The notes under the pieces were generated by a model. The model made no database searches and was not told the DNA's origin. It saw only the letters and a list, made by a program, of their open reading frames with translations. Positions 43,665 through 61,461 of a stretch of 64,000 nucleotides of DNA are shown here, in pieces. This DNA comes from Nordella sp. HKS 07. GTDB lineage: Bacteria > Pseudomonadota > Alphaproteobacteria > Rhizobiales > Aestuariivirgaceae. The stretch is from the NCBI RefSeq assembly GCF_011046735.1, contig NZ_CP049258.1, forward strand, positions 248,001 to 312,000, given 5' to 3'. Position numbers and translations under genes: made by a program. The first letter of the stretch is position 1. The number at the start of each line of letters is the position of its first letter.

Positions 43665-43712
43665 GGGCTGTCCTTGAGTCGGGCGGGCAATCACAGTAAA
43701 GCCAGCCGCATA

Positions 43713-45443
43713 ATGAAACAGATACTTCGCATCTTTCTGTCGGCCGAAGGCGCCCGGCCCTGGGCGGTATTGCTGTGCCTGCTTCTGTCCGGCTTTGCCG
43801 AGGCGGTCAGTATTACCGCACTTTTGCCCACGATCCAGACGATTGCCAGTCAGGGAATTGAGTCCGGCGGCGGCTCACTGGCCATGTCCTTCATTCACAA
43901 TTTCATGTCGGCGCTGGGGATTACACCCAATCTTCCCAATCTCATTCTCGTCGTCTTGGTATTCTTCGCGCTGAAGACGATCCTGTCCTTCGTCGCCTTG
44001 TCTTACGCCGGCTATACGATCGCCCGCGTTTCCACCGGACTTCGACGGCGGCTGATCAAGGCATTGTTTGGCGCGCGCTGGAGCTTCTACACGCAATTGC
44101 AAGCCGGCCGCGTCGCCAACATCATGAGCGGAGATGCCGGCATCGCCGGCATGGCCTATTACGTCGCGGCCCAGATCATGGCCTTTTCCATCCAGGGCGT
44201 TATCTACACGATTGTCGCCCTGATGATCGACTGGAGGCTGGCCGTTCTCGGCCTGGTCGTCGGAGCAGCCATTGCCGGCTCGCTCGGCTGGCTGGTGACG
44301 ATCGCCAAGAAAGCCGGCTACAAGCGGGCCGACCGGACGTCCGAACTCACGACCTTCATCACCGACCTGATGAACAACATCAAGCCTTTGAAGACGATGG
44401 ACCGCTATGACGGCCTGGTCGGCGAGATGGGGCTTATCCTCAGGCGCTTGCGCAAGGCCCTGGTCACCCGGGAAGTCGCCCGTCAGGGACTCACTCAGGG
44501 CGGCGACCTGCTCATTACCTTGGCCCTTGGCATCGGTGTCTATCTCGCGGTGACCGTCGGCAACCTCTCACTGGCGGAGCTTGTCGTTCTCGCTGTCGTC
44601 TTCTCCCAGGTGATCAACATCACCAACAAGCTGCAGAAGCTCACGCAGCAGGCGGCGGAATTTGAAGGCGCCTATATCCGCACCGAGCAGCTCATCAACA
44701 GCGCGAATGCTCAGTGCGAAACGCACATCGGAACGCTCCCCCCTATCCTCGAGAAGGAATGCCGCTTCGAGAACGTCACCTTCGCTCATGCAAAGACACC
44801 GGTGGTCAGGAATGTCAGCTTCACCATCTCGAAGGGCTCCATAACCGTGCTGCAGGGGCAATCCGGCGCCGGCAAGACGACATTGATAGACCTGCTCACC
44901 GGCCTCCATACGCCCGATAAGGGATTGATTACGCTGGATGGCGTTTCGCTCGCGGACATCGACATGAAGCAGTGGCGGCAGTCGATCGGGTATGTGCCGC
45001 AGGAGCTCAGTCTGCTCCACACGACGATCAGGGAGAATATCGTCCTCGGCGACACCGGGATCAGCGACGCGGATCTGATGGAGGCGCTCGATCAGGCGGG
45101 GGCGCGCGATTTCATCATGGCGATGCCCAACGGCGTCGACACTGAAGTGGGGGTCATGGGCTCGAAGCTGTCGGGCGGCCAGCGCCAGCGCATTGCCTTG
45201 GCCCGCGCCTTGGTCGTCAAGCCGAAACTGCTCATCCTCGATGAGGTCACGAGCGCGCTTGATCCGGAATCCGAGCTGGCCATCTGCCAAAACATTTCGG
45301 CCTTGCGCGGCAAATACACCACGGTCGCGATCACCCATCGTCCGGCCTGGACGGAGGTGGCGACCGATCTCTACAAGGTCGAGCGTGGCGGCATGATCAA
45401 GACGACAGTATCCAGCACGACGAAAGAGGGCAGCGCCGCATGA
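43713..45443 (+). CDS. ABC exporter half-transporter (MsbA-like), possible lipid flippase
   Basis: 576 residues: an exporter-type transmembrane domain (about 1-320, six helices, first at 20-40) fused to an ATPase with Walker A GQSGAGKTT, Q-loop YVPQELSLLHTTIREN, signature LSGGQRQR and Walker B LLILDEVTSALD with ITHRP. It works as a homodimer in the inner membrane. Start is the ATG at 43713 (MKQILRIF). Its stop overlaps the start of the ceramide synthase candidate (ATGA at 45440), so a role in flipping a sphingolipid intermediate is attractive; this is inference from coupling. Confidence 0.88.
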   Translation: MKQILRIFLSAEGARPWAVLLCLLLSGFAEAVSITALLPTIQTIASQGIESGGGSLAMSFIHNFMSALGITPNLPNLILVVLVFFALKTILSFVALSYAGYTIARVSTGLRRRLIKALFGARWSFYTQLQAGRVANIMSGDAGIAGMAYYVAAQIMAFSIQGVIYTIVALMIDWRLAVLGLVVGAAIAGSLGWLVTIAKKAGYKRADRTSELTTFITDLMNNIKPLKTMDRYDGLVGEMGLILRRLRKALVTREVARQGLTQGGDLLITLALGIGVYLAVTVGNLSLAELVVLAVVFSQVINITNKLQKLTQQAAEFEGAYIRTEQLINSANAQCETHIGTLPPILEKECRFENVTFAHAKTPVVRNVSFTISKGSITVLQGQSGAGKTTLIDLLTGLHTPDKGLITLDGVSLADIDMKQWRQSIGYVPQELSLLHTTIRENIVLGDTGISDADLMEALDQAGARDFIMAMPNGVDTEVGVMGSKLSGGQRQRIALARALVVKPKLLILDEVTSALDPESELAICQNISALRGKYTTVAITHRPAWTEVATDLYKVERGGMIKTTVSSTTKEGSAA

Positions 45444-46576
45444 GCCTGAGGGTCGCGGAAGTCCGATCGGCGGCGGACAGGAAGGCGTTCCTGCGCGTCC
45501 CTCATCTGGTCTTCGCCGGCGATCCCAACTGGGTCGCCCCGCTCGATCTCGAGCGCCGGGAGCACCTCGACCCCAGAAAGAACCCTTATTTCCGGCACGC
45601 CGAAGCTCAGCTTTTCGTCGCCTATGACGGCGACAGGCCGGTCGGCAGGATCTCCGCTCAGCTTGATCGGCTACGCCTCGAGCACCATCGCGACGGCTAT
45701 GGACAATTCGGCTTCCTCGACGCCGTCGACGACGCTCGGGTCTTTGCAGCACTTCTCGGAACCGCTGAGGATTGGCTCCGCAAGAGAGACCTGAAGGCCA
45801 CGCATGGCCCGTTCAGTTTCTCGATCAATGACGAGATGGGACTTCTGATCAAGGGCTTCGACACGCCGCCTTCGATGATGATGGGGCATGCTTTGCCCTA
45901 TTATGCGCGCCATCTCGAATCGCAAGGCTATGTCAAAGCCAAGGACGTCTTGGCCTATGATTATGAAGAAGCTCAGCCTATGCCCGAAATGCTGCGGGCC
46001 TTGCTCGAAAAGGTCAAGGCGCGCGGCAATCTTGTGATCAGGCCTCTGAGCAAGAAGAACCTTGATCGCGACCTCGCCATCATCATCGACATCTTCAATG
46101 ATGCCTGGTCGGAAAACTGGGGCTTCGTACCGATGACGCACGAGGAGATCGTAGCACTCGGCAAGAATTTGAAGATGCTTGTGAACGAAGAGTACATTTC
46201 GATCGCGAGCTACAAGGATGAGCCGGCCGCCATGGCCATCACCCTTCCCAACCTCAACGACTGGATCAAGGATCTGAACGGCAGGCTTCTGCCGTTGGGT
46301 TGGGCGAAGCTCGCCTGGCGGCTGATGATGACGCCGCCACAATCCGTACGCATGCCGCTGATGGGAGTTCGCCGCCGATATCATAGGACGACACTCGGCT
46401 CGGCGCTGACGCTTGCTGTCGTCGACAGCGTCAGAGCCTATCATATCAGCCGCGGCACCGTCCGCGCCGAGTTCTCCTGGGTATTGGAGGAAAACCTGCC
46501 CATGCGGCGCATTATCGAGTCGAATGGCGGCACGGCCTACAAGACCTATCGCATCTACGAGAAGAGCCTGACGTGA
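45440..46576 (+). CDS. cerS: GNAT-fold protein, candidate bacterial ceramide synthase
   Basis: 378 residues with two GNAT-like halves. N-terminal pattern FLRVPHLVFAGDPNWVAPLDLERREHLDP and GRISAQLD; C-terminal acyltransferase-like block RAEFSWVLEENLPMRRII. Relatives are often annotated as hypothetical or dATP pyrophosphohydrolase-like. From memory, the Caulobacter crescentus protein with this architecture is the bacterial ceramide synthase, which N-acylates 3-oxosphinganine. The spt, ACP, reductase and ligase genes within 12-16 kb support that. It overlaps the ABC exporter and the next nucleotidyltransferase gene by 4 nt each. Family assignment good, enzyme assignment inferred. Confidence 0.78.
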   Translation: MSLRVAEVRSAADRKAFLRVPHLVFAGDPNWVAPLDLERREHLDPRKNPYFRHAEAQLFVAYDGDRPVGRISAQLDRLRLEHHRDGYGQFGFLDAVDDARVFAALLGTAEDWLRKRDLKATHGPFSFSINDEMGLLIKGFDTPPSMMMGHALPYYARHLESQGYVKAKDVLAYDYEEAQPMPEMLRALLEKVKARGNLVIRPLSKKNLDRDLAIIIDIFNDAWSENWGFVPMTHEEIVALGKNLKMLVNEEYISIASYKDEPAAMAITLPNLNDWIKDLNGRLLPLGWAKLAWRLMMTPPQSVRMPLMGVRRRYHRTTLGSALTLAVVDSVRAYHISRGTVRAEFSWVLEENLPMRRIIESNGGTAYKTYRIYEKSLT

Positions 46577-47364
46577 CGGCGGCCGCCTGGAATGTCGTTG
46601 TCCTCGCCGCCGGCCGCGGACCGGACGATCCGATGGCGAAGGCCTATCGGGTCACGCACAAATGCCTGGTCGAGGTGGGTGGGGAAAAGATGCTTGCGCG
46701 TGTGGTGCGAACGCTCGACGCGCACCCCGCGGTCAAGTCGATCGGTGTCGTGATTGAAACGCGCGAGTTGCTCGTGGAAGCCTTGGGCCCGCTTGCCGGC
46801 AAAGTGAGTTTCTTGTCGCCGCAGGAGAGTGCCGCGCGCTCGGCGCTCGCCGCGGTAAAAGGCGATCCGCAGTTCCCCTGGCTCATCACCACCGGCGATC
46901 ACCCCCTCCTGACCACCGACATGCTGGATTATTTCTTCACCGAGGCCGCGGGTTATGATGCCGACCTCTCGGCGGGGCTCGCCAGCGCCGAAACCATACT
47001 GGCGCGTTTTCCGGAGGCGAAGCGGACGTTCCTGAAATTCGGTCGCGATCGCGTTTCCGGCTGCAATCTCTTCGCCTTGACGTCGGATCGCGCCCTCGCG
47101 GCCCTCGCCTTCTGGCATGATCTCGAGAAGAACAGGAAGAAGCCCTGGCGTCTAATCGGCGCCTTTGGGCCAGTGGCGTTGCTGCGTTTCGCGACCGGCA
47201 TGCTGACGCTGGAAAGCGCCTTCGCGCTCGCCTCGCGGCGCTTGCGCCTCACTGCAAGGCCCGTGCTGATGCCCTTCGCGGAAGCGGCCGTCGATGTCGA
47301 CAAGCCGGAAGACAAGGAACTCGCCGAGAAGATTCTCGCCGAAAGACGCGCCTTACCAGCCTGA
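46573..47364 (+). CDS. MobA-like nucleotidyltransferase
   Basis: A 263-residue GT-A-fold NTP transferase: VVVLAAGRGPDDPMAKAY near the N-terminus followed by THKCLVEVGGEKML, then TGDHPLLT (metal-binding D). Instead of the usual G-x-G-x-R-x4-PK pattern it has a spaced G-R-G...K..K form typical of the MobA-like_NTP_transf_3 group. The start is GTG 46573, overlapping the ceramide synthase stop (GTGA). It probably activates a small phosphorylated alcohol or sugar for a lipid head group. Its last 12 bases overlap the convergent nucleotidyltransferase gene. Confidence 0.82.
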   Translation: MTAAAWNVVVLAAGRGPDDPMAKAYRVTHKCLVEVGGEKMLARVVRTLDAHPAVKSIGVVIETRELLVEALGPLAGKVSFLSPQESAARSALAAVKGDPQFPWLITTGDHPLLTTDMLDYFFTEAAGYDADLSAGLASAETILARFPEAKRTFLKFGRDRVSGCNLFALTSDRALAALAFWHDLEKNRKKPWRLIGAFGPVALLRFATGMLTLESAFALASRRLRLTARPVLMPFAEAAVDVDKPEDKELAEKILAERRALPA

Positions 47365-48081
47365 TACGAGCTGGCGCGCCTGTTGCAGATCCACCGGGAA
47401 ATCCACTTCGCACCATTGCACCCCGTCGAGGGCCACGGTCGCGATCGGGATGCGCTTGGCAAGCATGCCGACCGCCGCCGGGAACCATTGCTTAAGGCCC
47501 GACGGCTCGCGCATGGCGCCGTCCAGGGTCTCGACATAGGCTTTCGCGCCATCACCACGAAAGATGTAGAAGCCGATGGCCTCGGCATTGACGGTTTCGG
47601 CCGGCAAAGTCTTGCCGATCTCGGTCAGCCGGTCGCCATCCATCATGACCTTCATGTCGTCGGCGTCATAGGCGGGCTTATGATTGATGGCGACCGTCAC
47701 CGGTGCCGGGGGCGCCGCCAGCAGGATCTTGACCAGATCCGCCTTGAACAGGTTGTCGCCATTGACCTGAATGAACTCGCCCTTCATTTCCTGACGCGCC
47801 ATCCAGCAGCTTGCGAGATTGTCGGCCACGCTGAAGAACGGATTGAATATGGTCTTGATCTTGATCCGTTTGTCGTGTGCGATGCGCGCCAGCGCTTCTT
47901 CCATGCGCGACGCCGCGTAACCGGTGACAACGGCGAATTCGCTGACGCCGCACGCGACAAAGGCATCGATCTGTCGGCCGATGAGCGACCGCCCGCCGAT
48001 ATCCAGGAGAGCCTTGGGGACTTCGGCGGTCAAAGGCAGGAGTCGCTTCCCCTGCCCGGCGCCAAGAATGATAACTTTCAC
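47353..48081 (-). CDS. NDP-sugar/phosphocholine-cytidylyltransferase-like nucleotidyltransferase
   Basis: A 242-residue enzyme with a canonical signature VIILGAGQGKRLLPLTAEVPKAL, NGDNLF (metal aspartates) and EIGKTL. The length and the DNLASCWMA region resemble LicC-type CTP:phosphocholine cytidylyltransferases and inositol-1-phosphate cytidylyltransferases. It is transcribed against the ceramide synthase run but divergently from the phosphoesterase. It could make the CDP-alcohol or CDP-polyol used by a CDP-alcohol transferase (compare 51934). Substrate unproven. Confidence 0.82.
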   Translation of the reverse strand: MKVIILGAGQGKRLLPLTAEVPKALLDIGGRSLIGRQIDAFVACGVSEFAVVTGYAASRMEEALARIAHDKRIKIKTIFNPFFSVADNLASCWMARQEMKGEFIQVNGDNLFKADLVKILLAAPPAPVTVAINHKPAYDADDMKVMMDGDRLTEIGKTLPAETVNAEAIGFYIFRGDGAKAYVETLDGAMREPSGLKQWFPAAVGMLAKRIPIATVALDGVQWCEVDFPVDLQQARQLVSGW

Positions 48082-48232: not shown

Positions 48233-49150
48233 ATGTTCACGCTTGCCCATCTCTCCGACGTTCATATCGGGCCACTGCCCAAAGCGGAATCATGGCGCGA
48301 CTATCTGGGCAAGCGGACGCTGGGCAAGCTCAGCTGGCATCGCCGCCGGCGGTTCCTGCACGATCCGGTGATCGCCAGCGCCATGATCGCCGATATCCGG
48401 GCGCACGCCCCCGATCATGTCGCCTTGACCGGCGATCTCATCAATATCGCGCTGAAGCAGGAGTTCATCGAGGCGGCACTATGGCTCAAGGCCTTCGGCC
48501 CGCCTGACTGGATCACCGTGGTGCCCGGCAACCACGACGCCTATCGCCCGTTCCCGTGGGCAGAAGGTGCCGGCCTGTGGGCCGACTATATGACGGGCGA
48601 CATCAGGCTGCCGGGCGCGGCACGCGCCGCCCCGGGGGCCGAGCAGGTCTTTCCCTTTGTGCGCCAGCGCCGGAACATCGCCTTGATCGGCCTGTCCAGC
48701 GCGGTTCCGCAATCACTGTTCCGGGCCGGCGGACGTCTGGGCGCCGATCAGCGCAGCGAGCTCGCCGCCACCCTGGAGGATCTGCGCCAGCGTGGCTTCT
48801 ACCGGGTCGTGCTGATCCACCACCCGCCGGTGCCCGGCCTCACCCCCAGACGCCGCGCCCTCGACGACGATCAGGAATTGAAGCAGGTGCTGGAGGACCA
48901 GGGCACCGATCTTGTCCTTTATGGCCACAATCATCGCCATGGCCGGAGCTCGCTGCAGACCCGCTTTGGCGCGGCCCATATTGTCGGGGCGCCGTCCGCC
49001 ACCTCTCCGGGACATGGCACCTATGATGCCGCCGCTTGGTACCTATATAAGATCCGCCGCCAGGAGGGGGCCTGGTCGACCACGGTGAATATCCGCAGCT
49101 GGGACGGCCGGAAGGGCGCCTTTGTAGCCCACAGCAGTTTTACCCTGTAG
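48233..49150 (+). CDS. Calcineurin-like metallophosphoesterase
   Basis: 305 residues with the five metal motifs: HLSDVHIG, GDLINI, GNHD, HHPP and GHNH. No signal peptide, so cytoplasmic. Family members cleave phosphomonoesters, phosphodiesters or nucleotide-linked lipids (for example LpxH-like UDP-lipid hydrolases), so a phosphatase or pyrophosphatase step in lipid head-group synthesis is plausible given the neighbours. It precedes the HIT gene by 37 nt containing a small AAGGA/TCCTT hairpin. Confidence 0.9.
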   Translation: MFTLAHLSDVHIGPLPKAESWRDYLGKRTLGKLSWHRRRRFLHDPVIASAMIADIRAHAPDHVALTGDLINIALKQEFIEAALWLKAFGPPDWITVVPGNHDAYRPFPWAEGAGLWADYMTGDIRLPGAARAAPGAEQVFPFVRQRRNIALIGLSSAVPQSLFRAGGRLGADQRSELAATLEDLRQRGFYRVVLIHHPPVPGLTPRRRALDDDQELKQVLEDQGTDLVLYGHNHRHGRSSLQTRFGAAHIVGAPSATSPGHGTYDAAAWYLYKIRRQEGAWSTTVNIRSWDGRKGAFVAHSSFTL

Positions 49151-49187: not shown

Positions 49188-49637
49188 ATGTTACAAATTA
49201 TGTCGAATGCCACGCTCGTCAAATTTGGCCTTCCCGCGACCCTGATCGCGGACTACAAGCACTGGACTGTTATGCTGCGTCCGGCGCAGGTCACTTTGGG
49301 ATCCCTCATATTGGGAGCAAAGGGAGAGTGGATGGCGTTCTCCCAAATTCCGCCTGAGGCATTTGCGGAATTGGCCCACGTAACCCGTTGTCTCGAGACC
49401 GGCCTCAAGAATTTCAATGCCTATGACAAGATCAATTACCTGATGCTTATGATGGTCGACCCGCACGTCCACTTCCATGTCATTCCCCGCTACGCCACGC
49501 CGCGGCGTTTCGAGGATCTGGAATTTCCAGATGTTGCCTGGCCGGGCCAGCCCAACATGGCCGGGGCAACCACCTTGCCGCCCGAGACCCAGATGCGTCT
49601 GCGCGACGCGGTGCGCCAGCACTGGCCGAGAGACTGA
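49188..49637 (+). CDS. HIT-family protein
   Basis: A 149-residue histidine-triad protein with the motif HVHFHVIP around residue 95, acting on nucleotide phosphoramidates, adenylates or CDP-type substrates. The first of two nearby ATG codons (49188) has an AGGGC upstream; 49200 is the alternative. It lies 6 nt before lptF and so leads, or joins, the lptF-lptG-transferase-kinase-cytidylyltransferase transcript. Possibly hydrolyses a nucleotide side product of that pathway; inference only. Confidence 0.88.
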   Translation: MLQIMSNATLVKFGLPATLIADYKHWTVMLRPAQVTLGSLILGAKGEWMAFSQIPPEAFAELAHVTRCLETGLKNFNAYDKINYLMLMMVDPHVHFHVIPRYATPRRFEDLEFPDVAWPGQPNMAGATTLPPETQMRLRDAVRQHWPRD

Positions 49638-49643
49638 TCCGTC

Positions 49644-50864
49644 GTGTTTCGCATCGTAGACCGCTATGTCCTGCGCCAGCTCGCCAAGCCGCTGATCACT
49701 TCGGTTATCATCGGTCTGCTCGTGCTTCTGGCCGAGCGGATGGTGCGACTGCTCGACACGACGCTCGGTAAGAAGAATTCCATCGGCGTCGTCTTCGAGA
49801 TGCTCGCCTATCTGGTGCCGCACTATCTGGGCGTGGCTTTGCCCGCCGCCTTGTTCCTCGGTCTTCTGTTCAGCTTCAACAAGATGTCGCGCGACAGTGA
49901 GATCGATGCCTTTCTGGCTTCGGGAATCGGGCTGCATCGCATTGCCCAGCCGGTGGCGATCCTGTCACTCATATTGGCTGCTCTTTCCGTCCTGATCGTC
50001 GGCTGGCTGCAGCCGCATACCCGCTACGCCTATCGCGCCGTCCTTTTCGACGTGAAGAATGTCGACGTCTTCTACCTCGCCGAGGAAGGCATCTTCATGC
50101 AGGCCGGGACCCGCACCTTCATCCTCGACAAGCTCAATCGCTCCGCCGGGACTTTCGAGCGCATCTTCCTCTTCGACAATCGCGGCAATCGCGGAATTGA
50201 GACGGTGACCGCCTCGAATGGCCGGCTGATCGAGAATACCGACACGCGCTTGCCAGTTCTGCGCCTTGAGAACGGCCACCGCCTGCAGATCGACCGCATG
50301 CCGAACCTCGCCCCCGATCAGCCGCCACCCAACTCGACCGTCAGCAACTTCGAGGCCGCCGACACGCCGCTCGGACAAGTGGCGGACAAGACATTTCGGC
50401 CGCGCGGCAATGATGAACGGGAGTTGACGCTTCCGGAGCTGATCGCGCTTCAGGGCAATCCGCCCCCGGGTGCCGAACCTGATCAGATGCGAGCCGAGCT
50501 GCACAAGCGATTCATCGCGATGCTGACCATGCCGATGCTGCCCTTCCTGGCCGTGCCTTTCGCGCTCGGCCGACGCCGCAACCAGCGGACCTACCGGTTC
50601 GGCGTGGCGCTCATCCTGCTCGTTGCGTTGCACGAGGTCATCGAGCAAGGCGCCATCGCGACGCGCTCGAACGGCGCTTCGCCCTGGCTAACAATGTGGC
50701 TGCCCTTCCTGGCCGTCACGGCCTTTGCCGCTTGGCGATTCTGGTCGGTGAGCTTCGCGCTGCAGCCCGATCAGCTCGACCGCCTCATCGACCGGTTCGC
50801 CACCCTGATAAGGCGCTTCTTCAGCAGCGTGCGAACGCTTTTCTCGCGCGGAGAGGCGGTATGA
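49644..50864 (+). CDS. lptF: LptF-family permease
   Basis: 406 residues with the YjgP/YjgQ pattern: N-terminal IVDRYVLRQLAKPLI, TM1 about 16-36, TM2 and TM3 about 55-120, a beta-jellyroll periplasmic domain about 125-305, then three more helices. LptF and LptG form the membrane part of the lipopolysaccharide extractor. The GTG start follows the HIT gene by 6 nt; the stop overlaps lptG (ATGA). The surroundings (CDP-alcohol transferase, lipid kinase) are unusual for the LPS-export pair, suggesting a sphingolipid-dedicated paralogue. Confidence 0.9.
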   Translation: MFRIVDRYVLRQLAKPLITSVIIGLLVLLAERMVRLLDTTLGKKNSIGVVFEMLAYLVPHYLGVALPAALFLGLLFSFNKMSRDSEIDAFLASGIGLHRIAQPVAILSLILAALSVLIVGWLQPHTRYAYRAVLFDVKNVDVFYLAEEGIFMQAGTRTFILDKLNRSAGTFERIFLFDNRGNRGIETVTASNGRLIENTDTRLPVLRLENGHRLQIDRMPNLAPDQPPPNSTVSNFEAADTPLGQVADKTFRPRGNDERELTLPELIALQGNPPPGAEPDQMRAELHKRFIAMLTMPMLPFLAVPFALGRRRNQRTYRFGVALILLVALHEVIEQGAIATRSNGASPWLTMWLPFLAVTAFAAWRFWSVSFALQPDQLDRLIDRFATLIRRFFSSVRTLFSRGEAV

Positions 50865-51937
50865 ACATAATCGGCTGGATGCTCACGCGTATGGTTCTCA
50901 TACGCTTCGTCTTCATTCTCTTCGGCATTTCGATCTTTGTCATAACCCTCGACATCGTCGCTTATTCGAAGGAGATCCTGGCCATCGGCGATGGCGGTCT
51001 GCAAGCGGTCTTCACCTATGTCCTGATGCGGTCCCCCGGCACGCTCTCGACCTTTCTGCCAATCAGCGTGCTGATCGCGATGCTCCTGGTCCTCATCGAG
51101 CTGAGCTACCGCAACGAATTGCCGGCGATCTGGTCGTCCGGCATCTCGCCCTTCCGTATCATGATGATGCTGATGCCCTTCGCCATCATGGCCGGCGGAT
51201 TGCATTTCCTTCTCAACGACCAGGCCGTGCCGCGCGCCGCGCCCACGCTGCGCCTGTGGGGCATCGGCGACTATGACGAGAAGAAGCTGAAGGTCGGCGG
51301 CGAAAGTGATCCGATCTGGATGCGTGCCGGCCGCGACATTCTCAGGGCCGGCAGCGCCAATCCGCAGGCGACCGAGCTCGATGACGTCATCATCTTCCGC
51401 CGCGACGAGGCGGGACTCCTGCGTGAGCAGATCATGGCGAAGCATGCCGTGCTCAACCAGGATCGCTGGCATCTGTCGAACGTGCTCGTCTATTACCGCG
51501 AGAATCTTCCGCCCAATCGCCTCGATCAGATGATCTATTCGGGCTCTTTTCGCCCGGCTGCCGCCGGCGCGCGCTCAGGCGATCCCGAAGAGATGAGCAT
51601 GAGCGATCTGAGCTATTTCGTCGAGAATTCAGGCTTCGGCATCAGACCGGCCTGGGTCTATCAGACCTGGTGGCACAAGCGGCTTACGCTGTTCGTCACC
51701 GCCTTCGCTATGGTCGCCTTGTGCATTCCTCTCGCCGCCCGCTTCCGCCGCGGCGGTGGCATCGGGGTGATGTTCGCCGTCGGCATCGGCCTCGGCTTCC
51801 TCTTCTTTATCACCGACGGCATTGCCCTCACTATGGGCGAACTGGGCTTTGTGACCCCCTGGTTCGCTGCCTGGGCTCCGATCCTGGGCCTATCGGCGAT
51901 CGCCGGCTTCATAACCTTCCGCACTGAGCGCCTATGA
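50861..51937 (+). CDS. lptG: LptG-family permease
   Basis: 358 residues of the same YjgP/YjgQ fold as LptF: first helix around 12-34, LMRSPGTLSTFLPISVLIAMLL, a periplasmic jellyroll domain in the middle and three C-terminal helices. It is coupled to lptF (ATGA at 50861) and to the CDP-alcohol transferase (ATGA at 51934). In Escherichia coli LptFG works with LptB and LptC; neither is in this window. That it extracts LPS, a phospho-ceramide, or both cannot be told from sequence. Confidence 0.9.
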   Translation: MNIIGWMLTRMVLIRFVFILFGISIFVITLDIVAYSKEILAIGDGGLQAVFTYVLMRSPGTLSTFLPISVLIAMLLVLIELSYRNELPAIWSSGISPFRIMMMLMPFAIMAGGLHFLLNDQAVPRAAPTLRLWGIGDYDEKKLKVGGESDPIWMRAGRDILRAGSANPQATELDDVIIFRRDEAGLLREQIMAKHAVLNQDRWHLSNVLVYYRENLPPNRLDQMIYSGSFRPAAAGARSGDPEEMSMSDLSYFVENSGFGIRPAWVYQTWWHKRLTLFVTAFAMVALCIPLAARFRRGGGIGVMFAVGIGLGFLFFITDGIALTMGELGFVTPWFAAWAPILGLSAIAGFITFRTERL

Positions 51938-53133
51938 CCGTGGAACACGTGACAATGAACGCCGCTCCAGACCGACCGGCATCAGGGCAGGCTGCAAGCC
52001 CGGTGCTTTGCTTCGTGGGCTCGAGCGATATCCGCCTATGGTCCTTGACGCCGGTCGAGCGCCTTCGCCGCCAGTTCGCCCGTGAGGGCGTGCGGCAGGA
52101 GATTTCCTTCGCCCAAGCCGGACGGCACAACGGACCGGTGATCTACATCCGCGCCGACGCGGTGCTGGACCAGCCTCTGATCCCTATCCTCGTCACAAGG
52201 CCCAATGTGCTGATCATCGGCAGCACCGGCCAAGCCTCAACGGCGCTGGCGGTCCAGGCTCCAGGCCATCATGGCCATGCGATCGCCGAGATATTGCTGG
52301 AGGGTATCGAGCCGGCGTCCGGTCTGCAGCTCCTCGCGCGCACGCCCGACCAGCTCGATGCCAAATTCTGGAAGGCCCTGCGCAAGCGTGAGACGCCCTA
52401 TGCCTTCCGCCTGACGGCCGACAACCAGCCGGATGTCGAATGGCGGATGTTCATGGGCACTTACAAGGGCGCCACCGATCTGGTGACCAAGCATGTCTGG
52501 CCGCGGCCCGCTTTCGCGGTCACGCGGTGGCTGGCGCCGCGCGGCATCACGCCCAACATGGTGACGCTGGTGGGCGCGGTCATGGTCTTCCTGGCTTTCT
52601 GGTTGTTCATGCAGGGCCAGTATGCCTTGGGCCTTGCAGCGGCTTGGCTCATGACCTTCCTCGACACGGTCGACGGCAAGCTCGCCCGCACGACGCTGAC
52701 CTCGAGCAAATGGGGCGACGTTTTCGATCACGGCCTCGACCTCATCCACCCACCCTTCTGGTATGTCGCCTGGGGCATAGGGCTCGCTCATTCCGGCCAT
52801 CCCCTCGATGCAACGACACTCTGGACCGTCATCGCGGCTATTCTCGGCGGCTATGTCTTGCAGCGGATCATGGAAGGCATATCCATCAAGTGGCTTGGAC
52901 TCGAGATCCATATCTGGCGCAAGATCGACACGGTGTTTCGCCAGATCACCGCACGCCGCAATCCCAATCTCGTGATCCTGACGGCCTTCACTCTGGGGGG
53001 CCGCCCCGACTGGGGGCTCATCGCGGTTGCGTGGTGGACGGTGATCTGTCTCGTGCTGCACGGGCTGCAACTCGCGCAGGGCCTGGCCGCTAGGCGCGCC
53101 GGACCGCTCGAATCCTGGATGGCGAAGAGCTGA
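51934..53133 (+). CDS. CDP-alcohol phosphatidyltransferase with N-terminal nucleotidyltransferase-like domain
   Basis: 399 residues. The catalytic motif is complete: D244-x2-D247-G248-x2-A251-R252-x8-G261-x3-D265-x3-D269, in a C-terminal domain of about six helices starting near 205. The N-terminal about 180 residues resemble a nucleotidyltransferase fold without a nucleotide signature, as in the bifunctional inositol-phosphate cytidylyltransferase/phosphotransferase family. It overlaps lptG by 4 nt and the lipid kinase by 1 nt. Likely forms a phosphodiester between ceramide-phosphate and a head-group alcohol. Gene order matches the Caulobacter ceramide phosphoglycerate genes as I recall them. 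Confidence 0.85.
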   Translation: MTVEHVTMNAAPDRPASGQAASPVLCFVGSSDIRLWSLTPVERLRRQFAREGVRQEISFAQAGRHNGPVIYIRADAVLDQPLIPILVTRPNVLIIGSTGQASTALAVQAPGHHGHAIAEILLEGIEPASGLQLLARTPDQLDAKFWKALRKRETPYAFRLTADNQPDVEWRMFMGTYKGATDLVTKHVWPRPAFAVTRWLAPRGITPNMVTLVGAVMVFLAFWLFMQGQYALGLAAAWLMTFLDTVDGKLARTTLTSSKWGDVFDHGLDLIHPPFWYVAWGIGLAHSGHPLDATTLWTVIAAILGGYVLQRIMEGISIKWLGLEIHIWRKIDTVFRQITARRNPNLVILTAFTLGGRPDWGLIAVAWWTVICLVLHGLQLAQGLAARRAGPLESWMAKS

Positions 53134-54086
53134 TGATCCGCGGTCTCATCGTCAACCCGCTATCCGGCAAGGCGAGCGGCAAGGGCCTGAAGCTGGCCTC
53201 GCTGCTCAAGGCGCATCCGCATGTCATGGTCCGGGTGCTCGAGAATTTCGCCCAGCTCAACCCCTTCGTTGCGGAAATGGCCGAAGCCGGTGTGACCGAT
53301 CTTTTCATCAGCTCGGGTGACGGCACCGTGCAGGCGATCCAGACCGAGATCGCCGAACGTCACGCGCCGAAGTTCTTTCCGCGCTTGTCGCTTCTGCCGC
53401 ACGGCACCACCAATATGACGGCGGCCGATCTGGGTTTCCGCAACCGAAGCGTAGAGGTCCAGGCGGATTTCATCGCCAACCGGGAGTCGCGCGCGATCGT
53501 CGCGCGCCCGACATTGCGCGCCGCCAACCCCAGGGATGGCCGGGTCCGCCACGGCATGTTCCTGGGAACCGGCGCCGTGTGGCAGGCCACCGTCTTCTGC
53601 CAGGAGGTCGTCCATGGCACCGGCTTGAAGGGTGATTTCGCCACCTTTGCAACCTTGGCAGCGGCAGTCGGCAAGGCGCTGTTCATCCGCGCCGATCCCC
53701 ATGATCACAAGCGGATTGATCGGCCTTATCCCATCGGGCTTGCCCGCGACGGCGCCGCGGTCCTGGACGGACAGCATCTCCTCCTTCTCGCGACCACACT
53801 CGACAAGCTCATTCTCGGCACCAGGCCCTTCTGGGGCGGCAAGAGCGGCCCGATCCGGGTCTCGACCATCCCCTATCCGATCCCCAGCATCGTGCGCTGG
53901 CTGCTGCCCTTGATGTATGGCGGCGAAGACCGCGGCGTGCCCGAAGGCGCCCGTAGCTATGCCGGTCAGGTTTTCGAGATTGCCTCGAAGACACCCTTTG
54001 TCATCGACGGTGAATTCTTCGAAGGGCCGGTCGAGGGGCCGCTCAGGCTCGAAACCGGTCCAGAATTCACCTATGTTTGCGGATGA
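53133..54086 (+). CDS. cpgB: Diacylglycerol/ceramide kinase-family lipid kinase
   Basis: A 317-residue DAGK-fold kinase: VNPLSGKASGKG near the N-terminus, the ATP site SSGDGTVQ (60-67; first glycine of the usual GGDGT replaced by Ser) and LPHGTTNMTAADLG, a variant of the PLGTGND loop. The C-terminal beta domain ends with IDGEFFEGP. It overlaps the transferase (1 nt) and the Tam41-like gene (4 nt). CpgB of Caulobacter is a reported ceramide kinase; the symbol rests on gene order plus fold and should be checked. Confidence 0.78.
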   Translation: MIRGLIVNPLSGKASGKGLKLASLLKAHPHVMVRVLENFAQLNPFVAEMAEAGVTDLFISSGDGTVQAIQTEIAERHAPKFFPRLSLLPHGTTNMTAADLGFRNRSVEVQADFIANRESRAIVARPTLRAANPRDGRVRHGMFLGTGAVWQATVFCQEVVHGTGLKGDFATFATLAAAVGKALFIRADPHDHKRIDRPYPIGLARDGAAVLDGQHLLLLATTLDKLILGTRPFWGGKSGPIRVSTIPYPIPSIVRWLLPLMYGGEDRGVPEGARSYAGQVFEIASKTPFVIDGEFFEGPVEGPLRLETGPEFTYVCG

Positions 54087-54964
54087 TGGCCACTCCGCCC
54101 GCCGACCTCTCGAGCCTCATCGCCAGGACGCTTGATCGTCCGCTTTCCCCGGATGTCCGGGCAATGGCCGACCACGTGCTCAGCCGGCATGCGAAGGCCG
54201 CCGCCATCCTCGCTTACGGTTCCTGCCTGCGCGGGGTCGGCACCGATGAATCGCTGATTGATCTCTATGTTCTCCTGGAGCGCGACGAGGATGTGAGCAC
54301 GAATGTGCTGAGCCGTCTGGGCGCCCGCCTCATGCCGCCGAATGTCTATTATGCCGAGACGCTCCATGAGGGCCGAACCTTGCGTTGCAAATATGCCGTT
54401 GTGACTCTGTCGGTCTTCGCCGCGCGCATGCGCCCGGAGACGACGAATCCCTACTTCTGGGCACGCTTTGCGCAACCCTCCGCACTTCTGCACGCCTCGA
54501 CCGACGTGAACCGCGCGCATGTCATAGCGGCGGTGACCCAGGCGGTCATCACCATGTATCGCGCCGCCATCGCCACAGCGCCTCGCGACAGCACACCGGC
54601 GGATACTTGGCGTAGCGGCTTCGAGGAGACCTATCTGACCGAACTGCGTCCCGAATCCGGGGGTCGCGCCGGCGAGCTCGTCGCCGCGAATGCCTCTTTC
54701 TATGACGCGGTGGCGCAGATGATCGGCCACCCGGATGTCCCGCCGGTGTCATGGTCGAAACGGCGCTGGGAAGGCAAGGCGCTCTCCGTCGCAAGACTGC
54801 TGAAGGCCGCTTTTACGTTCGAGGGTGGCGCATCCTACGCGGCATGGAAGATCGAGCGGCACAGCGGAAAGAAAATCGTGCTTTCGCCGTGGCAGCGGCG
54901 CCACCCCGTTCTCGCCGGTTTCCTGCTGCTGCCGAGATTGTTGTGGCGAGGCGCCATTAAGTGA
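54083..54964 (+). CDS. Tam41-like nucleotidyltransferase, candidate lipid-phosphate cytidylyltransferase
   Basis: 293 residues. The N-terminal half has a nucleotidyltransferase-superfamily motif ILAYGSCLRGVG followed by ESLIDLYVLL, then PNVYYAET and LRCKYAVVTLSVF, a succession I associate with Tam41 (mitochondrial CTP:phosphatidate cytidylyltransferase). The C-terminal half ends in a basic, hydrophobic helix (LAGFLLLPRLLWRG) that could touch the membrane. The start is the ATG at 54083, overlapping the kinase stop. Predicted reaction: CTP + ceramide-1-phosphate -> CDP-ceramide, feeding the transferase two genes upstream. Fold plausible, substrate inferred. Confidence 0.68.
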   Translation: MMATPPADLSSLIARTLDRPLSPDVRAMADHVLSRHAKAAAILAYGSCLRGVGTDESLIDLYVLLERDEDVSTNVLSRLGARLMPPNVYYAETLHEGRTLRCKYAVVTLSVFAARMRPETTNPYFWARFAQPSALLHASTDVNRAHVIAAVTQAVITMYRAAIATAPRDSTPADTWRSGFEETYLTELRPESGGRAGELVAANASFYDAVAQMIGHPDVPPVSWSKRRWEGKALSVARLLKAAFTFEGGASYAAWKIERHSGKKIVLSPWQRRHPVLAGFLLLPRLLWRGAIK

Positions 54965-57169: not shown

Positions 57170-58372
57170 CTAAACCGCCTTCTTGTAGAGCCCTTGCGCG
57201 ACGACTTCGCCGAACAGGGCGATGATCCGGTCGATTTCCTCGAATGTATGCGCCGCCGATACCGAGCAGCGCAGCAGGCACTGTTTCCCGGGCGTGCCGG
57301 GTGGCAGGGCGATATTCACATATACACCGGCAGTGAGAAGTGCATTCCACATTGAGATGGTGGACACTTCGTCGGGACAATGGACCGCCACGATCGGGCT
57401 TACGCTGTCGCAACCGAGCGCCAGCCCCAATGACTTGAAGCCGTTGAACAGTCGGGCGGAATTGACGGACAGACGCTCACGCCGCTCTGGCTCGGCCCTG
57501 AGCTTGCGGATCGCGGCCAGCGCGGTTGCCACCGTGGCGGGCGACGGCGAGGCGGTGAACATATAGGGCCGCGACGCATATCGCAGCATGTTGAACAGGG
57601 GATGGTTACCGGCACCGAAGCCGCCGATGGCGCCGATGCTCTTCGAAAAGGTGCCGACGACGAAATCGACATCGTCCTCAAGTCCGGCTTCGTCCGCCAG
57701 TCCTCTGCCGTTCTTGCCGAGGACGCCGAAGGAGTGAGCCTCGTCGACGAGGAGTTGGAAGCCGTGCTTCTTCTTCACCTCGACGAACTCCGCCAGCGGC
57801 GCGCGGTCGCCCAGCATCGAATAGATGCCTTCGAGCACCACGAGACGGCCGCCTTCGTCTTCCGAACGCGCCAGACGCTTGTCGAGATCGCCAGCATCAT
57901 TATGGCGGAAGCGCACCAGCTTGGCGCCCGACAGTGTGCAGCCGTCATAGATCGAAGAATGCGAGTCGGCGTCGAGATAGATCGTGTCCTTGGGTCCCGC
58001 GAGGCCCGCCAGCATGCCGAGATTGGCCTGGTAGCCGGTCGTGAACATGATGCAGTGCTTGCGGTTGAGGAAGCCCGCGAGTTCCTTCTCGAGATCGCGA
58101 TGCATGGAATATGAGCCATTGGCGATGCGCGAACCCGTCGTGCCCGTGCCATAGAGAGCCATCGCCTCCTGCCCGGCGGCGATGCAGTCGGGATCGAAGG
58201 TGATGCCCATGTAGTTGTTGGTGCCCGCCAGCACGGTCTCGCGGCCATCGATGATGGCACGTGTCGGCGAAAGGATACGGTCATTGGTCAGGCTGACCGC
58301 GTTGACGCCGAGCGAGAGCATGCGTTCGTGACGTTCGGCGATCGCGCGATGTTTGTCGAATAGATCGGTCAT
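57170..58372 (-). CDS. spt: Serine palmitoyltransferase
   Basis: A 400-residue alpha-oxoamine synthase that condenses L-serine with an acyl thioester to 3-oxosphinganine. Features: NNYMGI, GTGTTGSRIANGS, the DSHSSIYDG region, DEAHSFGVLG (PLP aspartate), and the Schiff-base lysine in VGTFSKSIGAIGG. Compared with KBL/AONS paralogues the soluble SPT pattern is strong, and the upstream dedicated ACP (4 nt gap) plus the reductase settle the choice. The start is the ATG at 58372 (MTDLFDKHR). Last gene of the minus-strand operon. Confidence 0.88.
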   Translation of the reverse strand: MTDLFDKHRAIAERHERMLSLGVNAVSLTNDRILSPTRAIIDGRETVLAGTNNYMGITFDPDCIAAGQEAMALYGTGTTGSRIANGSYSMHRDLEKELAGFLNRKHCIMFTTGYQANLGMLAGLAGPKDTIYLDADSHSSIYDGCTLSGAKLVRFRHNDAGDLDKRLARSEDEGGRLVVLEGIYSMLGDRAPLAEFVEVKKKHGFQLLVDEAHSFGVLGKNGRGLADEAGLEDDVDFVVGTFSKSIGAIGGFGAGNHPLFNMLRYASRPYMFTASPSPATVATALAAIRKLRAEPERRERLSVNSARLFNGFKSLGLALGCDSVSPIVAVHCPDEVSTISMWNALLTAGVYVNIALPPGTPGKQCLLRCSVSAAHTFEEIDRIIALFGEVVAQGLYKKAV

Positions 58373-58376
58373 CTGT

Positions 58377-58625
58377 TCACACCTTTGCCAGCCGGGCATC
58401 GACGACCTTTACAAGGTCGCCAAGCGAGCGTGTTTCGGAAAGGACATTGAGAGGAATGTCGATGTTGAAGCGGTCCTCTACTTCCATGACGAAATCCATG
58501 ACCGTTACGGAATCGATATTGAGATCGGCTGAGATATCCGTGTCGGGCTTCAGGGCGATCTTGGCCGTGTTGAACGGTTCAAGCAGCTGACACAGTGTAT
58601 TGAATGTGTCCTCGCTCACGCTCAT
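58377..58625 (-). CDS. Acyl carrier protein dedicated to sphingolipid synthesis
   Basis: An 82-residue ACP with the four-helix pattern. The phosphopantetheine serine is S39 in LNIDSVTVMDF; the usual DSLD/E is DSVT here, a variant expected for a specialised carrier. It lies between the reductase (start overlaps its stop, ATGA at 58622-58625) and spt. It probably presents the acyl chain, loaded by the ligase at 59614, to serine palmitoyltransferase. Confidence 0.9.
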   Translation of the reverse strand: MSVSEDTFNTLCQLLEPFNTAKIALKPDTDISADLNIDSVTVMDFVMEVEDRFNIDIPLNVLSETRSLGDLVKVVDARLAKV

Positions 58626-59593
58626 TTTCTGCTCTCTCCATAAAACTTAGGCGATTGCCTTCTATCGACCGCGCTCCTGGCCGGCAACCATCCTTGTTCG
58701 CGATACCAGGCGATCGTAAGGCGGAAACCCTCGGCGAACTGCCTGGCATTCACCACCCCGTCGCCGCGCGCGACCCAATCGCTGTGATACAGCTCCCTCA
58801 CCTTCCCGGGCGTCAGCGGAACCCGCAATTTGAGCGCCGATCCCAGCATCCCCACCGGATAGGACAGGCCATGCAGCAGCCATTGCGGCGGGAAGATCGC
58901 CCGCGCCTCACGGCCTTCCGTTTCGGCCGCACTCTTCAAGAGGTCCGGCCAGCCATAGCCGCCGGGCCTTCCGTCATCGATCTCGTGCAGGCCTGCCATA
59001 TCGTCTGCCAGGCGTGCGATCAGGTAGTTTGCCAGATCCTCGACATAAATGAGCGAGATGCGCGCCTCACGGTTGGCCGGAATGACGGCAAGACGCCGGG
59101 TGAGCTGCGCCATCAGCGGCAAGGTGGCGCGGTCGCCCGGCCCATAGACCGCAGGCGGCCTGACGATGAGGAGGTTTAGCGGTGCGAGAGCGAGAAGCTT
59201 TTCCTCGGCCTCAAGCTTGCTTGCCCCGTAGTCGGAGAGTTGAGGCTCCCGAGCGGCAAGACTTGAAACATGAATGAAGCGCTCGACGCCGGCAGACATC
59301 GCGGCGCGGGCAAGCTTCTCCGTTCCTTGCGCATTGATGGCGAAAAAGCTGGCGCGATCAGGCGCGGCGATCGCGCCGGCCAGATGAATGACGGCCCCTG
59401 CTCCCGCAACCAGCCGCGCGAGTGCCGCTTCGTCGTCGAGGGTGCCGATGATTGTTTCCGCCCGGCCGAAGCCGCAGTCGCGCGGCCCTTCGCGCACGAG
59501 CAGCTTCAGGGAGAATCCTGCCTCATCGAGCGCCGCGACGAGGTGCCTGCCGACAAAACCGGTGCTTCCTGTAAGTGCAATCGGGCCTCGCAT
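58622..59593 (-). CDS. cerR: NAD(P)-dependent epimerase/dehydratase family protein, ceramide reductase-like
   Basis: A 323-residue extended SDR: nucleotide site TGSTGFVGRHLV, HLAGAIAAPD and the Y-x3-K pair in DYGASKLEAEEKL, then RPPAVYGPGD. The C-terminal part resembles 3-beta-HSD-type reductases. In Caulobacter, CerR reduces the 3-oxo group of the N-acylated intermediate, and the gene sits with spt and acp in the same order. No membrane helix is obvious apart from a hydrophobic stretch near 245-260. Enzymatic assignment from order plus fold. Confidence 0.82.
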   Translation of the reverse strand: MRGPIALTGSTGFVGRHLVAALDEAGFSLKLLVREGPRDCGFGRAETIIGTLDDEAALARLVAGAGAVIHLAGAIAAPDRASFFAINAQGTEKLARAAMSAGVERFIHVSSLAAREPQLSDYGASKLEAEEKLLALAPLNLLIVRPPAVYGPGDRATLPLMAQLTRRLAVIPANREARISLIYVEDLANYLIARLADDMAGLHEIDDGRPGGYGWPDLLKSAAETEGREARAIFPPQWLLHGLSYPVGMLGSALKLRVPLTPGKVRELYHSDWVARGDGVVNARQFAEGFRLTIAWYREQGWLPARSAVDRRQSPKFYGESRK

Positions 59594-59613: not shown

Positions 59614-61461
59614 TTATTGGGCAGCTTCGAGCCGCGTCTCGTCAAGGGGACGTGGCAGCCGCGCCAACGGCGAAATCTCGGCGATGTCGCCCGCCAGATA
59701 GCCGTCTTTCGCGCCGGCGCGGGACAGCTTGCCGGACGAGGTAAAGGGCAGGCTCTTCGGCGCGACGAGTACGACAGCACACTCGACACCGGCCGTCTGA
59801 TGGACGGCGGCGGCGATATTCCGGCGCAATTCTTCCATTTCCGGGCCATCCGCCAGGCGGCAATGCACGAGAACGACGACATCGTCCTCGCCATCCTCGC
59901 CCTCGACTGCGAAGGCCGCGGCGTCGCCGCTGCGCAGGGGCTCGATCCGCTCGGCCGCCCATTCGATGTCCTGCGGCCAGATATTGCGGCCATTATGGAG
60001 GATCAGGTCCTTGGCGCGGCCAGTAATGACGATTTCGCCATCGAGCCAGTAGCCCATGTCGCCGGTGTCCATATAGCCATCGGCGGTCATGATCGCCTGG
60101 GTGGCTTCGATATTCTCGAAATAACCGGCCATCAGGCTCGGGCCTTTGAACAGGATATGGCCGATCTCGCGGTCGCCCAGATCCTGGCCGGCATCGTCAC
60201 GGATGACGATGTCATGGCCGGTGATCGGCTTGCCGCACACGACGAAGCTGCGCACCCGCTCAGGGCTCTGCTTGAGCTGCTCACTTGCCGGGACCGCGCG
60301 CTGCGCCAACTTGTAATGCAGGCGGTCGACGGTATCGACCTTCACCGGCTTGCTGAGGTCGGCGAAAGTGATGGCAAGTGTCGATTCGGCCATGCCGTAG
60401 CTAGGCGTGAAAGCCTTGGCGTCGAAGCCCGCGACCGCGAGCTTCTCGGCGAAATTGTTCAGGATATCGGCCCGCACCATGTCGCCGCCGATACCGGCGA
60501 CGCGCCACGACGTCAGATCGAGCGTCACCGCCTCGCCGTTGATCCGGCGCGCCGCGAGATCGAAGCCGAAAGATGGCGAGTAGGAGATGGTGCTGCGATT
60601 CTCCGACATCAGCTTGAGCCACAGCGCCGGGCGACGGGCAAATGACGGGGTCGACAGGAAATCGACCGTCACCTGGCCCATCATCGGCGACAGGCAGAAG
60701 CCGACGAGCCCCATGTCGTGATAGAGCGGCAGCCAGGAGAAGGCGCGATCCTCGTTGGTGATGCGCAGCCCGTCGCGCAGAATGCCGCGCGTATTGGCGA
60801 CGATCGCCTTCTGGGTGATGAGCACGCCCTTGGGGCTCGAGGTCGAGCCGGAGGAATACTGGATATAGGCCACATCGTCGACATCGAACGGCTTGAGCTT
60901 GTCGATGCTCTCGGGCAGCGCCGCCAGTTCCTCGAACGTCTTGACGATGGCCGTGTCGGCGAGTTTCGCCGCTTCACCGATATGCGAAATGAGATCGCCC
61001 GGCAGGATGACCGCGCCGGCGCGCGCCGTCTTCAGCATGCCGGCGATGCGTGAAACATAAGCTTCCTTGCCACCGATATACATCGAATAGGGCATGGGGC
61101 ACGGCACCAGGCCGGCATATTGGCAGCCGAAGAAGACCGCCATGAAATCGGGATTTGTTTCGGCAACAACCGCCACGCGATCACCGCGCTTCAGGCCAGT
61201 CGAGAGAAGCTTGCGCGCCGTGCTCAGCGCCCTGAGCCGCAACTCACGGTAGGTGAGCACATGCTCTAGCTGGCCGCGCGACGAATAGAAATTGAAGCCC
61301 GTCACACCCCGCGCGGCATAGTCGAGACCCGCGCTCAGTGTTGCAAAACCACCAAGCACTTTCGCCAGCACCGGGTTATGATGGGGCGTGGGCGTTAGCG
61401 CGAACTCCGCCGCGCTCTGCCTCAAACCGCCTTTGATCACCGTGCCGTGCAATTGATCCAA
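59614..61461 (-). CDS. Fatty acyl-AMP ligase / acyl-ACP synthetase-like enzyme
   Basis: A 615-residue ANL-superfamily adenylating enzyme. Core motifs: YSSGSTSSPKGVLIT (A3), FSWLPLYHDMGLVG (the FAAL-type HDMGL segment), TPSYGMAESTLAI and YMDTGDMGYWLDGEIVITGR. The HDMGL and AEST features favour FAAL-like enzymes that transfer acyl adenylates to an ACP. It should load the ACP at 58377. The frame opens with TTG 61461; a GTG at codon 8 is an alternative. A 122-base structured leader lies upstream. Confidence 0.87.
   Translation of the reverse strand: MDQLHGTVIKGGLRQSAAEFALTPTPHHNPVLAKVLGGFATLSAGLDYAARGVTGFNFYSSRGQLEHVLTYRELRLRALSTARKLLSTGLKRGDRVAVVAETNPDFMAVFFGCQYAGLVPCPMPYSMYIGGKEAYVSRIAGMLKTARAGAVILPGDLISHIGEAAKLADTAIVKTFEELAALPESIDKLKPFDVDDVAYIQYSSGSTSSPKGVLITQKAIVANTRGILRDGLRITNEDRAFSWLPLYHDMGLVGFCLSPMMGQVTVDFLSTPSFARRPALWLKLMSENRSTISYSPSFGFDLAARRINGEAVTLDLTSWRVAGIGGDMVRADILNNFAEKLAVAGFDAKAFTPSYGMAESTLAITFADLSKPVKVDTVDRLHYKLAQRAVPASEQLKQSPERVRSFVVCGKPITGHDIVIRDDAGQDLGDREIGHILFKGPSLMAGYFENIEATQAIMTADGYMDTGDMGYWLDGEIVITGRAKDLILHNGRNIWPQDIEWAAERIEPLRSGDAAAFAVEGEDGEDDVVVLVHCRLADGPEMEELRRNIAAAVHQTAGVECAVVLVAPKSLPFTSSGKLSRAGAKDGYLAGDIAEISPLARLPRPLDETRLEAAQ

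Follow-up and report, generated by a model that had tools for sequence, protein, structure and literature searches.

A sole LptF–LptG permease pair inside a ceramide locus of Nordella sp. HKS 07 and its likely part in an Lpt machine for a ceramide-based lipid

We analysed a 64,000-nucleotide stretch of the Nordella sp. HKS 07 genome (hereafter the window), which holds almost the whole of a ceramide locus and, within it, lptF and lptG, the genes of a lipopolysaccharide transport (Lpt)-type permease pair. On the forward strand, genes for a metallophosphoesterase, an HIT-like protein, LptF, LptG, a cytidine diphosphate (CDP)-alcohol transferase, a lipid kinase, a Tam41-like protein and a GGDEF-EAL protein follow one another. 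The unbroken run from lptF to the Tam41-fold gene described in the original prediction was confirmed by the open reading frame coordinates, with overlaps of 4, 4, 1 and 4 nt. Ceramide genes flank this run: spt, an 82-amino-acid acyl carrier protein (ACP)-like gene, a cerR-like gene and an acyl-AMP ligase gene lie on the reverse strand, and the genes for an ATP-binding cassette (ABC) exporter, a CerS-like protein and a MobA-like nucleotidyltransferase, all forward, overlap by 4 and 4 nt. The genes are:

43674..45443, forward strand: ABC exporter, MsbA-like, candidate flippase (Pfam ABC_tran and ABC_membrane)
45440..46576, forward strand: bacterial ceramide synthase-like gene in the cerS position (conserved in place in relatives)
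46573..47364, forward strand: MobA-like nucleotidyltransferase (PF12804, E 1.1e-11)
47353..48081, reverse strand: nucleoside triphosphate (NTP) transferase, possibly CpgD-like (PF00483, E 1.8e-11)
48233..49150, forward strand: metallophosphoesterase, which starts the run (PF00149, E 8.9e-12)
49188..49637, forward strand: HIT-like small protein (place conserved in relatives; no Pfam match)
49644..50864, forward strand: lptF, sphingolipid-type (S clade; PF03739, E 7.9e-69)
50861..51937, forward strand: lptG, sphingolipid-type (S clade; PF03739, E 1.8e-62)
51934..53133, forward strand: CDP-alcohol phosphotransferase, cpgA-like (PF01066, E 5.2e-13)
53133..54086, forward strand: lipid kinase, like the ceramide kinase CpgB (PF00781, E 4.5e-13)
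54083..54964, forward strand: Tam41-fold cytidylyltransferase, cpgC-like (Tam41 CDP-diacylglycerol synthase-like fold)
57170..58399, reverse strand: serine palmitoyltransferase, spt (NCBIfam NF047599, 584.2 bits, cut-off 500)
58377..58625, reverse strand: 82-amino-acid ACP-like gene in the acpR position (open reading frame between spt and cerR)
58622..59593, reverse strand: NAD-dependent epimerase-family protein, cerR-like (PF01370, E 2e-23)
59614..61461, reverse strand: acyl-AMP ligase, aasR-like (PF00501, E 4e-57)

Near-identical clusters occur in Aestuariivirga sp. YIM B02566 and Taklimakanibacter lacteus; the family, which also contains Aestuariivirga litoralis and Thermopetrobacter, is probably Aestuariivirgaceae (Hyphomicrobiales).

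A PF03739 search of the full genome (7,184,314 bases in a single contig) found no second lptFG near lipopolysaccharide (LPS) genes, so that the window pair is the only one. Both proteins matched the model over its full length (LptF, 232.8 bits, positions 1–352 of 353; LptG, 211.9 bits, positions 2–351; cut-off 27.9). A sole pair that was essential for LPS export would have spoken against the dedicated lipid exporter originally predicted. This objection does not apply here, because LpxC, LpxB and LpxK, the lipid A enzymes covered by our search (LpxA, LpxD, WaaA and LptE were not searched), reached the cut-off in none of the 36 family genomes, the window genome included; weak matches below it were seen for LpxC in G012 and for LpxK in G011. 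The same three enzymes were found in 22, 19 and 20 respectively of 24 genomes from other families of the order. In this order set, G058 has LpxC and LpxB, and LptFG and LptD were not found in its assembly, which is 93% complete in 510 contigs and may have a gap there. Every family genome carries Spt (at least 61% identity, some in pieces), and PF03739 matches numbered exactly two in 30 of the 36, four in G007, three in G008, G019, G023 and G027, and one in G012.

The other members of the Lpt bridge, LptB, LptC, LptA and LptD, are all present in the window genome. The lptC-lptA-lptB genes lie at 2.85 Mb, upstream of rpoN, and LptB was recognised from its ABC domain and from the position of its gene behind lptC-lptA. 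The lptD gene occurs at two places, and across the family 34 of the 36 genomes gave an LptD match. Because these four components are encoded elsewhere, the locus is not the self-contained export system that had been proposed. The second lptD (L081:5461-9886, ~3.05 Mb) is 92% identical to the pepA-linked copy and has a second, closely similar lptB nearby, and the single LptC match of the genome is at the lptA-lptB locus.

The genomic site of the LPS-type pair was then compared between relatives. Among the LpxC-bearing relatives, 18 of 21 lptFG loci had the order pepA-lptF-lptG-lptD, two of the others being cut by contig ends and one rearranged. The window lptFG do not lie between pepA and lptD, contrary to this usual order-wide arrangement. 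Within the family, for which the lptD loci of 19 of the 36 genomes were examined, pepA was visible at 16 of the 19, and in all 16 lptD-surA follows it directly, without lptFG, across a gap of 29–512 nt or, at one locus, 1,377 nt. The LPS-free genome G049, from a different family, likewise has pepA directly next to lptD, with no lptFG between them. Both pairs are found in G041 (LpxC, LpxK and Spt present, LpxB not found), where the LPS-type pair sits at lptD and the S-type pair belongs to a ceramide cluster. In a second cluster of G041 (L057:278-10356), a lone S-range LptF-like gene is accompanied by an ABC exporter, an acyltransferase and genes resembling CerS (35%) and Spt (38%), possibly a single-subunit LptF system for another lipid.

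These results bear on the explanation that the cargo of the pair is still an LPS-like glycolipid, whose biosynthetic enzymes have diverged beyond the reach of the models, and that the pair came to be linked to ceramide genes by chance. The retention of the remaining bridge, LptD included, would suit such a glycolipid, and LpxA, LpxD and WaaA lay outside the search. However, three separate lipid A enzymes fall below cut-off in 36 of 36 family genomes, although they are found in most of the order, and the LPS-type lptFG are gone from the pepA-lptD site. We therefore regard this explanation as scarcely credible.

We analysed the two proteins further by profile scores and phylogeny. Scores to a profile built from S-type rows, by which the S and LPS-type (L) labels are themselves defined, with the trees as a partly independent check, split the LptF proteins into an S-type (186–684) and an L-type (36–110), with one row at 128. 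S and L each fell on one side of a branch in the 83-row trees (support 100/99 for LptF and 100/100 for LptG), and the window LptF and LptG belong to the S clade, separate from the LPS-type. For this careful LptF tree 37 of 119 rows were dropped: 18 were near-duplicates, and the other 19, odd or on long branches, included the diverged pairs of G054 and G007 as well as the third type found in G241 and G322. E. coli LptF was included and attached between the S and L clades on a long branch; the LptG tree used the same loci. In a quick LptF tree of all 119 rows, 48 of 50 L rows were on one side (SH-aLRT, an approximate likelihood ratio test, 82) and the other two, G054 and G007, fell on the S side, and the best split of a quick LptG tree placed 110 of 112 labelled rows. 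Duplicate loci (L001, L002, L091, L111, L113, L136 and L178) and one short LptF piece of G040 had been removed before tree building. The S-type profiles nevertheless match the proteins of the E. coli and Shigella LPS transporter (LptF, E 7.9e-24; LptG, E 1.1e-22).

The NCBIfam equivalog models agreed with this division for LptG. The window LptG scored 209.4 bits, below the cut-off of 240 of the LPS-LptG model TIGR04408, and the S-type LptG of G041 scored 195.9, with 268.5–283.5 for three LPS-type LptGs of relatives. For LptF, the window protein scored 226.5 against a TIGR04407 (LPS-LptF) cut-off of 230, and two of four LPS-type LptFs also missed it (228.5 and 228.7); this cut-off was dropped as a classifier because it does not separate the types.

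Several unusual LptF/LptG genes were also recorded. In G054, a very diverged pair (L060:3642-12449) is flanked by Spt (43%) on one side and a CerS-like gene (38%) on the other and is accompanied by a glycosyltransferase; it is perhaps a separate recruitment. The loci L244 (G322) and L239 (G241) carry the third, long-branched LptFG type. Lone LptF paralogues with 30–31% identity to the window LptF were seen outside the ceramide cluster in two genomes of genus g5 (L092:7852-9012 in G008 and L048:6029-7162 in G027).

Next, we asked whether the two types differ at the residues that contact LPS, which are reported to include LptG Lys40 (K40) for the 4'-phosphate, LptG K41 for the inner core and LptF R33 for the 1'-phosphate (PMC6744409). 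On alignment to E. coli, in which positions may be off by one residue and from which 12 odd loci and six LptG rows without an LptF label were omitted, a basic residue stood at the K40 equivalent in 41/46 L-type vs 9/61 S-type LptGs and at the K41 equivalent in 35/46 vs 6/61. LptF R33 was kept in both types (38/46 L and 57/61 S), and the LptF K30 position was basic in 61/61 S vs 2/46 L. Thus S and L proteins differ at the lipid-facing end; the residues alone do not name the cargo.

To place these observations in the class, we compared 290 genomes of Alphaproteobacteria. LpxC was missing in 27 of 43 Spt-bearing genomes (one of which, G083, is marginal at 37% identity) vs 9 of 247 Spt-free genomes; 14 of the 27 were scored as LpxC-free through absence from the 254 listed LpxC positives. 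PF03739 matches were counted in 80 chosen genomes, in which the 31 LPS-only controls (LpxC+Spt−) were those with the lowest-numbered handles rather than a random sample. Four or more matches were present in 14 of 16 LpxC+Spt+ genomes, with two in G083 and G116. The 26 LpxC−Spt+ genomes had two matches in 21, three in one, four in one and none in three, and the same three of the 26 lack LptD together with LptFG. Among the nine LpxC−Spt− genomes, seven were examined (two matches in three, none in four). The four-or-more rule separates 14/16 from 1/26 and 1/31 (Fisher p 3e-8 and 5e-9, with kinship ignored). Within each of the families f50, f63 and f38, four matches go with the presence of Spt and two with its absence. 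We rejected the possibility that the extra pair is a duplication for LPS, because 28 of the 31 LPS-only genomes have two matches and only one has four (the other two have one). An S-type LptF was present in all 19 of the 26 LpxC−Spt+ genomes whose loci were examined. Of 14 LpxC+Spt+ genomes with examined loci, 11 had one S and one L pair, G241 and G322 two non-S pairs, and G116 one L pair.

The original prediction had coupled lptFG tightly to head-group enzymes. This holds for the overlapping genes of the window; in some genomes of genera g10 and g5 it does not. The same lptFG adjoin spt, cerR, aasR and cerS in G017 and G021 (g10) and in G008, G019 and G027 (g5), and in the 20 kb around them a CDP-alcohol transferase and a Tam41-like gene were not found, nor, in g10, was the kinase. 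All three genes are present in G030 (g5). The constant partner of lptFG is ceramide, and the tie to the head group is looser than had been supposed. A cargo with one fixed phospho-head group is weakened as a candidate, as the head-group genes vary while lptFG stay. The same variation would suit a role of LptFG-S in moving some other amphiphile (phospholipid, glycolipid or hopanoid derivative), with ceramide genes as neighbours simply because both serve the outer membrane; in 14 of 37 genomes compared, moreover, Spt has no LptFG nearby. Extra LptFG, however, accompany Spt and not LPS alone (14/16 vs 1/31), also within the three families named above, and we consider this explanation unlikely.

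Taken together, the results make it likely that LptF and LptG are the inner-membrane part of an Lpt machine carrying a ceramide-based lipid, probably phosphoglycerate ceramide in the present genome. In this mechanism, Spt, ACP, CerS, CerR and the acyl-AMP ligase would make ceramide, and the kinase, the Tam41-fold enzyme, the CDP-alcohol transferase and the nucleotidyltransferases would add the head group. Transfer of the lipid to the periplasmic leaflet would fall to the MsbA-like exporter or a different flippase, its extraction to LptB2FG together with LptC, and its delivery to the outer leaflet, over the old LPS bridge, to LptA and LptD. In this lineage lipid A synthesis would have disappeared, as would the LPS-type lptFG beside lptD, and the remainder of the bridge would have stayed. 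The dedicated machine of the original prediction is favoured by the sole pair, the undetected Lpx enzymes, the empty pepA-lptD site and an S clade that tracks ceramide genes. Gene content, synteny, clades, co-occurrence and changed residues are what the data show; the transport itself, its cargo, the flippase and the service of LptC, LptA and LptD to this lipid are deduced from them.

LptFG-S may instead act at the inner membrane only, for example by offering ceramide to CerR in the periplasm or to head-group enzymes, without feeding the LptA–LptD bridge. CerR has been reported to be periplasmic (PMC11087976), which means that ceramide has to be dealt with in that compartment, and the genes spt, cerR and lptFG are often neighbours. 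Among LpxC−Spt+ genomes, however, LptD and LptFG are retained together and lost together, and without LPS there is no evident job for LptA, LptC and LptD, which makes an inner-membrane role alone very unlikely. Returning to export across the whole bridge, we think it rather likely that in Aestuariivirgaceae and other LPS-free Alphaproteobacteria the Lpt bridge, LptD included, was switched from LPS to a ceramide lipid by one permease pair: an ancient S-type LptFG would have set the cargo, loss of lipid A would then have made the LPS-type pair disposable, and LptFG alone would decide the cargo.

A number of observations weigh against this proposal. G116, with both LpxC and Spt, holds a single L-type pair, and the second pair of G241 and G322 is not S-type, although that of G322 lies 2 kb from spt. 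In G107, G265 and G325 (family f75, genus g86), which have Spt and are LpxC-free, LptFG and LptD were not found; therefore a ceramide maker can manage without Lpt, and the sphingolipids of these genomes, if surface-exposed, need another route. Conversely, G101, G104 and G160 are without LpxC and Spt yet retain LptFG and LptD, of the L-type in the two examined (G101 and G160); either LpxC was missed or Lpt has another cargo there. The LPS-free G049 has, besides its S-type pair, an L-range LptG on another contig, and the family member G007 has a second, diverged pair. At the substrate site, the E. coli contacts LptG K34, K62 and R136 are unconserved in both types alike, and a basic residue at R133 is commoner among S (26/61) than among L proteins (3/46). 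Finally, cluster structure varies beyond the inconstant head-group genes: G015, G023 and G033 have lptG inside the cluster and lptF outside, and of 37 genomes compared, 23 have Spt and LptFG within 15 kb of each other, three have them far apart on the same contig and 11 have them on separate contigs.

In Caulobacter crescentus, CC_1168, CC_1156 and CC_1155 are a second LptC, LptF and LptG for which phosphosphingolipid transport was proposed and not investigated, and CC_1156 (LptF2) has a cofitness of 0.60 with CC_1159 (PMC11324152). The idea of LptFG for a ceramide lipid is thus already in print. The CC_1168–CC_1152 region resembles the window in uniting ceramide genes, head-group genes, a flippase candidate and lptFG (PMC11324152). 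Caulobacter, however, makes LPS and has these as second copies with LptC2 in the cluster, whereas here the pair is the sole one, LpxB, LpxC, LpxK and the LPS-type pair are gone and the single LptC lies outside the cluster. The window proteins belong, at nearly full length, to the permease family of E. coli and Shigella LptB2FG (PDB 6s8g and 5l75), but they form a separate clade with K40/K41 seldom and the LptF K30 position always basic, in a genome in which LpxB, LpxC and LpxK were not found. As in LPS-free sphingomonads with glycosphingolipids (PMC11087976 and PMC11324152), a sphingolipid would replace LPS; the genes are scattered in Sphingomonas wittichii and Zymomonas mobilis (PMC11324152) and form one cluster here, in Hyphomicrobiales.

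In two papers of 2024 the route of bacterial sphingolipids across the envelope was stated to be unknown (PMC11324152 and PMC11087976), and the authors of the latter had not identified transporters. Among the literature matches listed, with limited coverage of subscription papers and priority unsettled, LPS loss or Lpt reassignment in the family was not reported, nor did words for LPS or sphingolipids appear in two papers on family members or Anderseniella. Within the literature searched, we found no earlier account of an LPS pair displaced in a family that has no lipid A genes, of the vacated site, of the class-wide count rule or of the residue differences. The family amounts to a natural gene-replacement experiment in which lipid A genes and the LPS-type pump were lost and the S-type pump and bridge kept, and the lineage could serve as a natural test of sphingolipid travel to the cell surface. 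LPS-free lineages would predict the cargo-choosing subunits and offer candidate residues and, if the proposal is true, LptD is not tied to LPS.

As to the neighbouring genes, the MsbA-like exporter, which adjoins cerS in relatives, scored 239.9 bits with the MsbA model, below the cut-off of 602; it may be the counterpart of Caulobacter CC_1166, its substrate being a presumed one. The gene in the cerS position had no Pfam or NCBIfam match, and we take it to be a ceramide synthase from its place and a presumed resemblance to CC_1154. The 82-amino-acid gene in the acpR position is likewise presumed to encode an ACP, from its place and what we take to be a DS motif rather than from a family search. 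The NTP transferase matched an inositol-1-phosphate cytidylyltransferase model below cut-off (E 2.8e-21), an enzyme that CpgD reportedly resembles (PMC12275187). The Tam41 fold fits a CTP:ceramide-phosphate cytidylyltransferase, with CDP-ceramide as an intermediate of ceramide phosphoglycerate synthesis, and a CDP-diacylglycerol synthase-like domain has already been noted in Caulobacter CC_1161 (PMC11324152). The GGDEF-EAL gene (window 55099-57081) lies between the head-group genes and spt, as it does in G001–G003, and a GGDEF-like gene also follows in G035.

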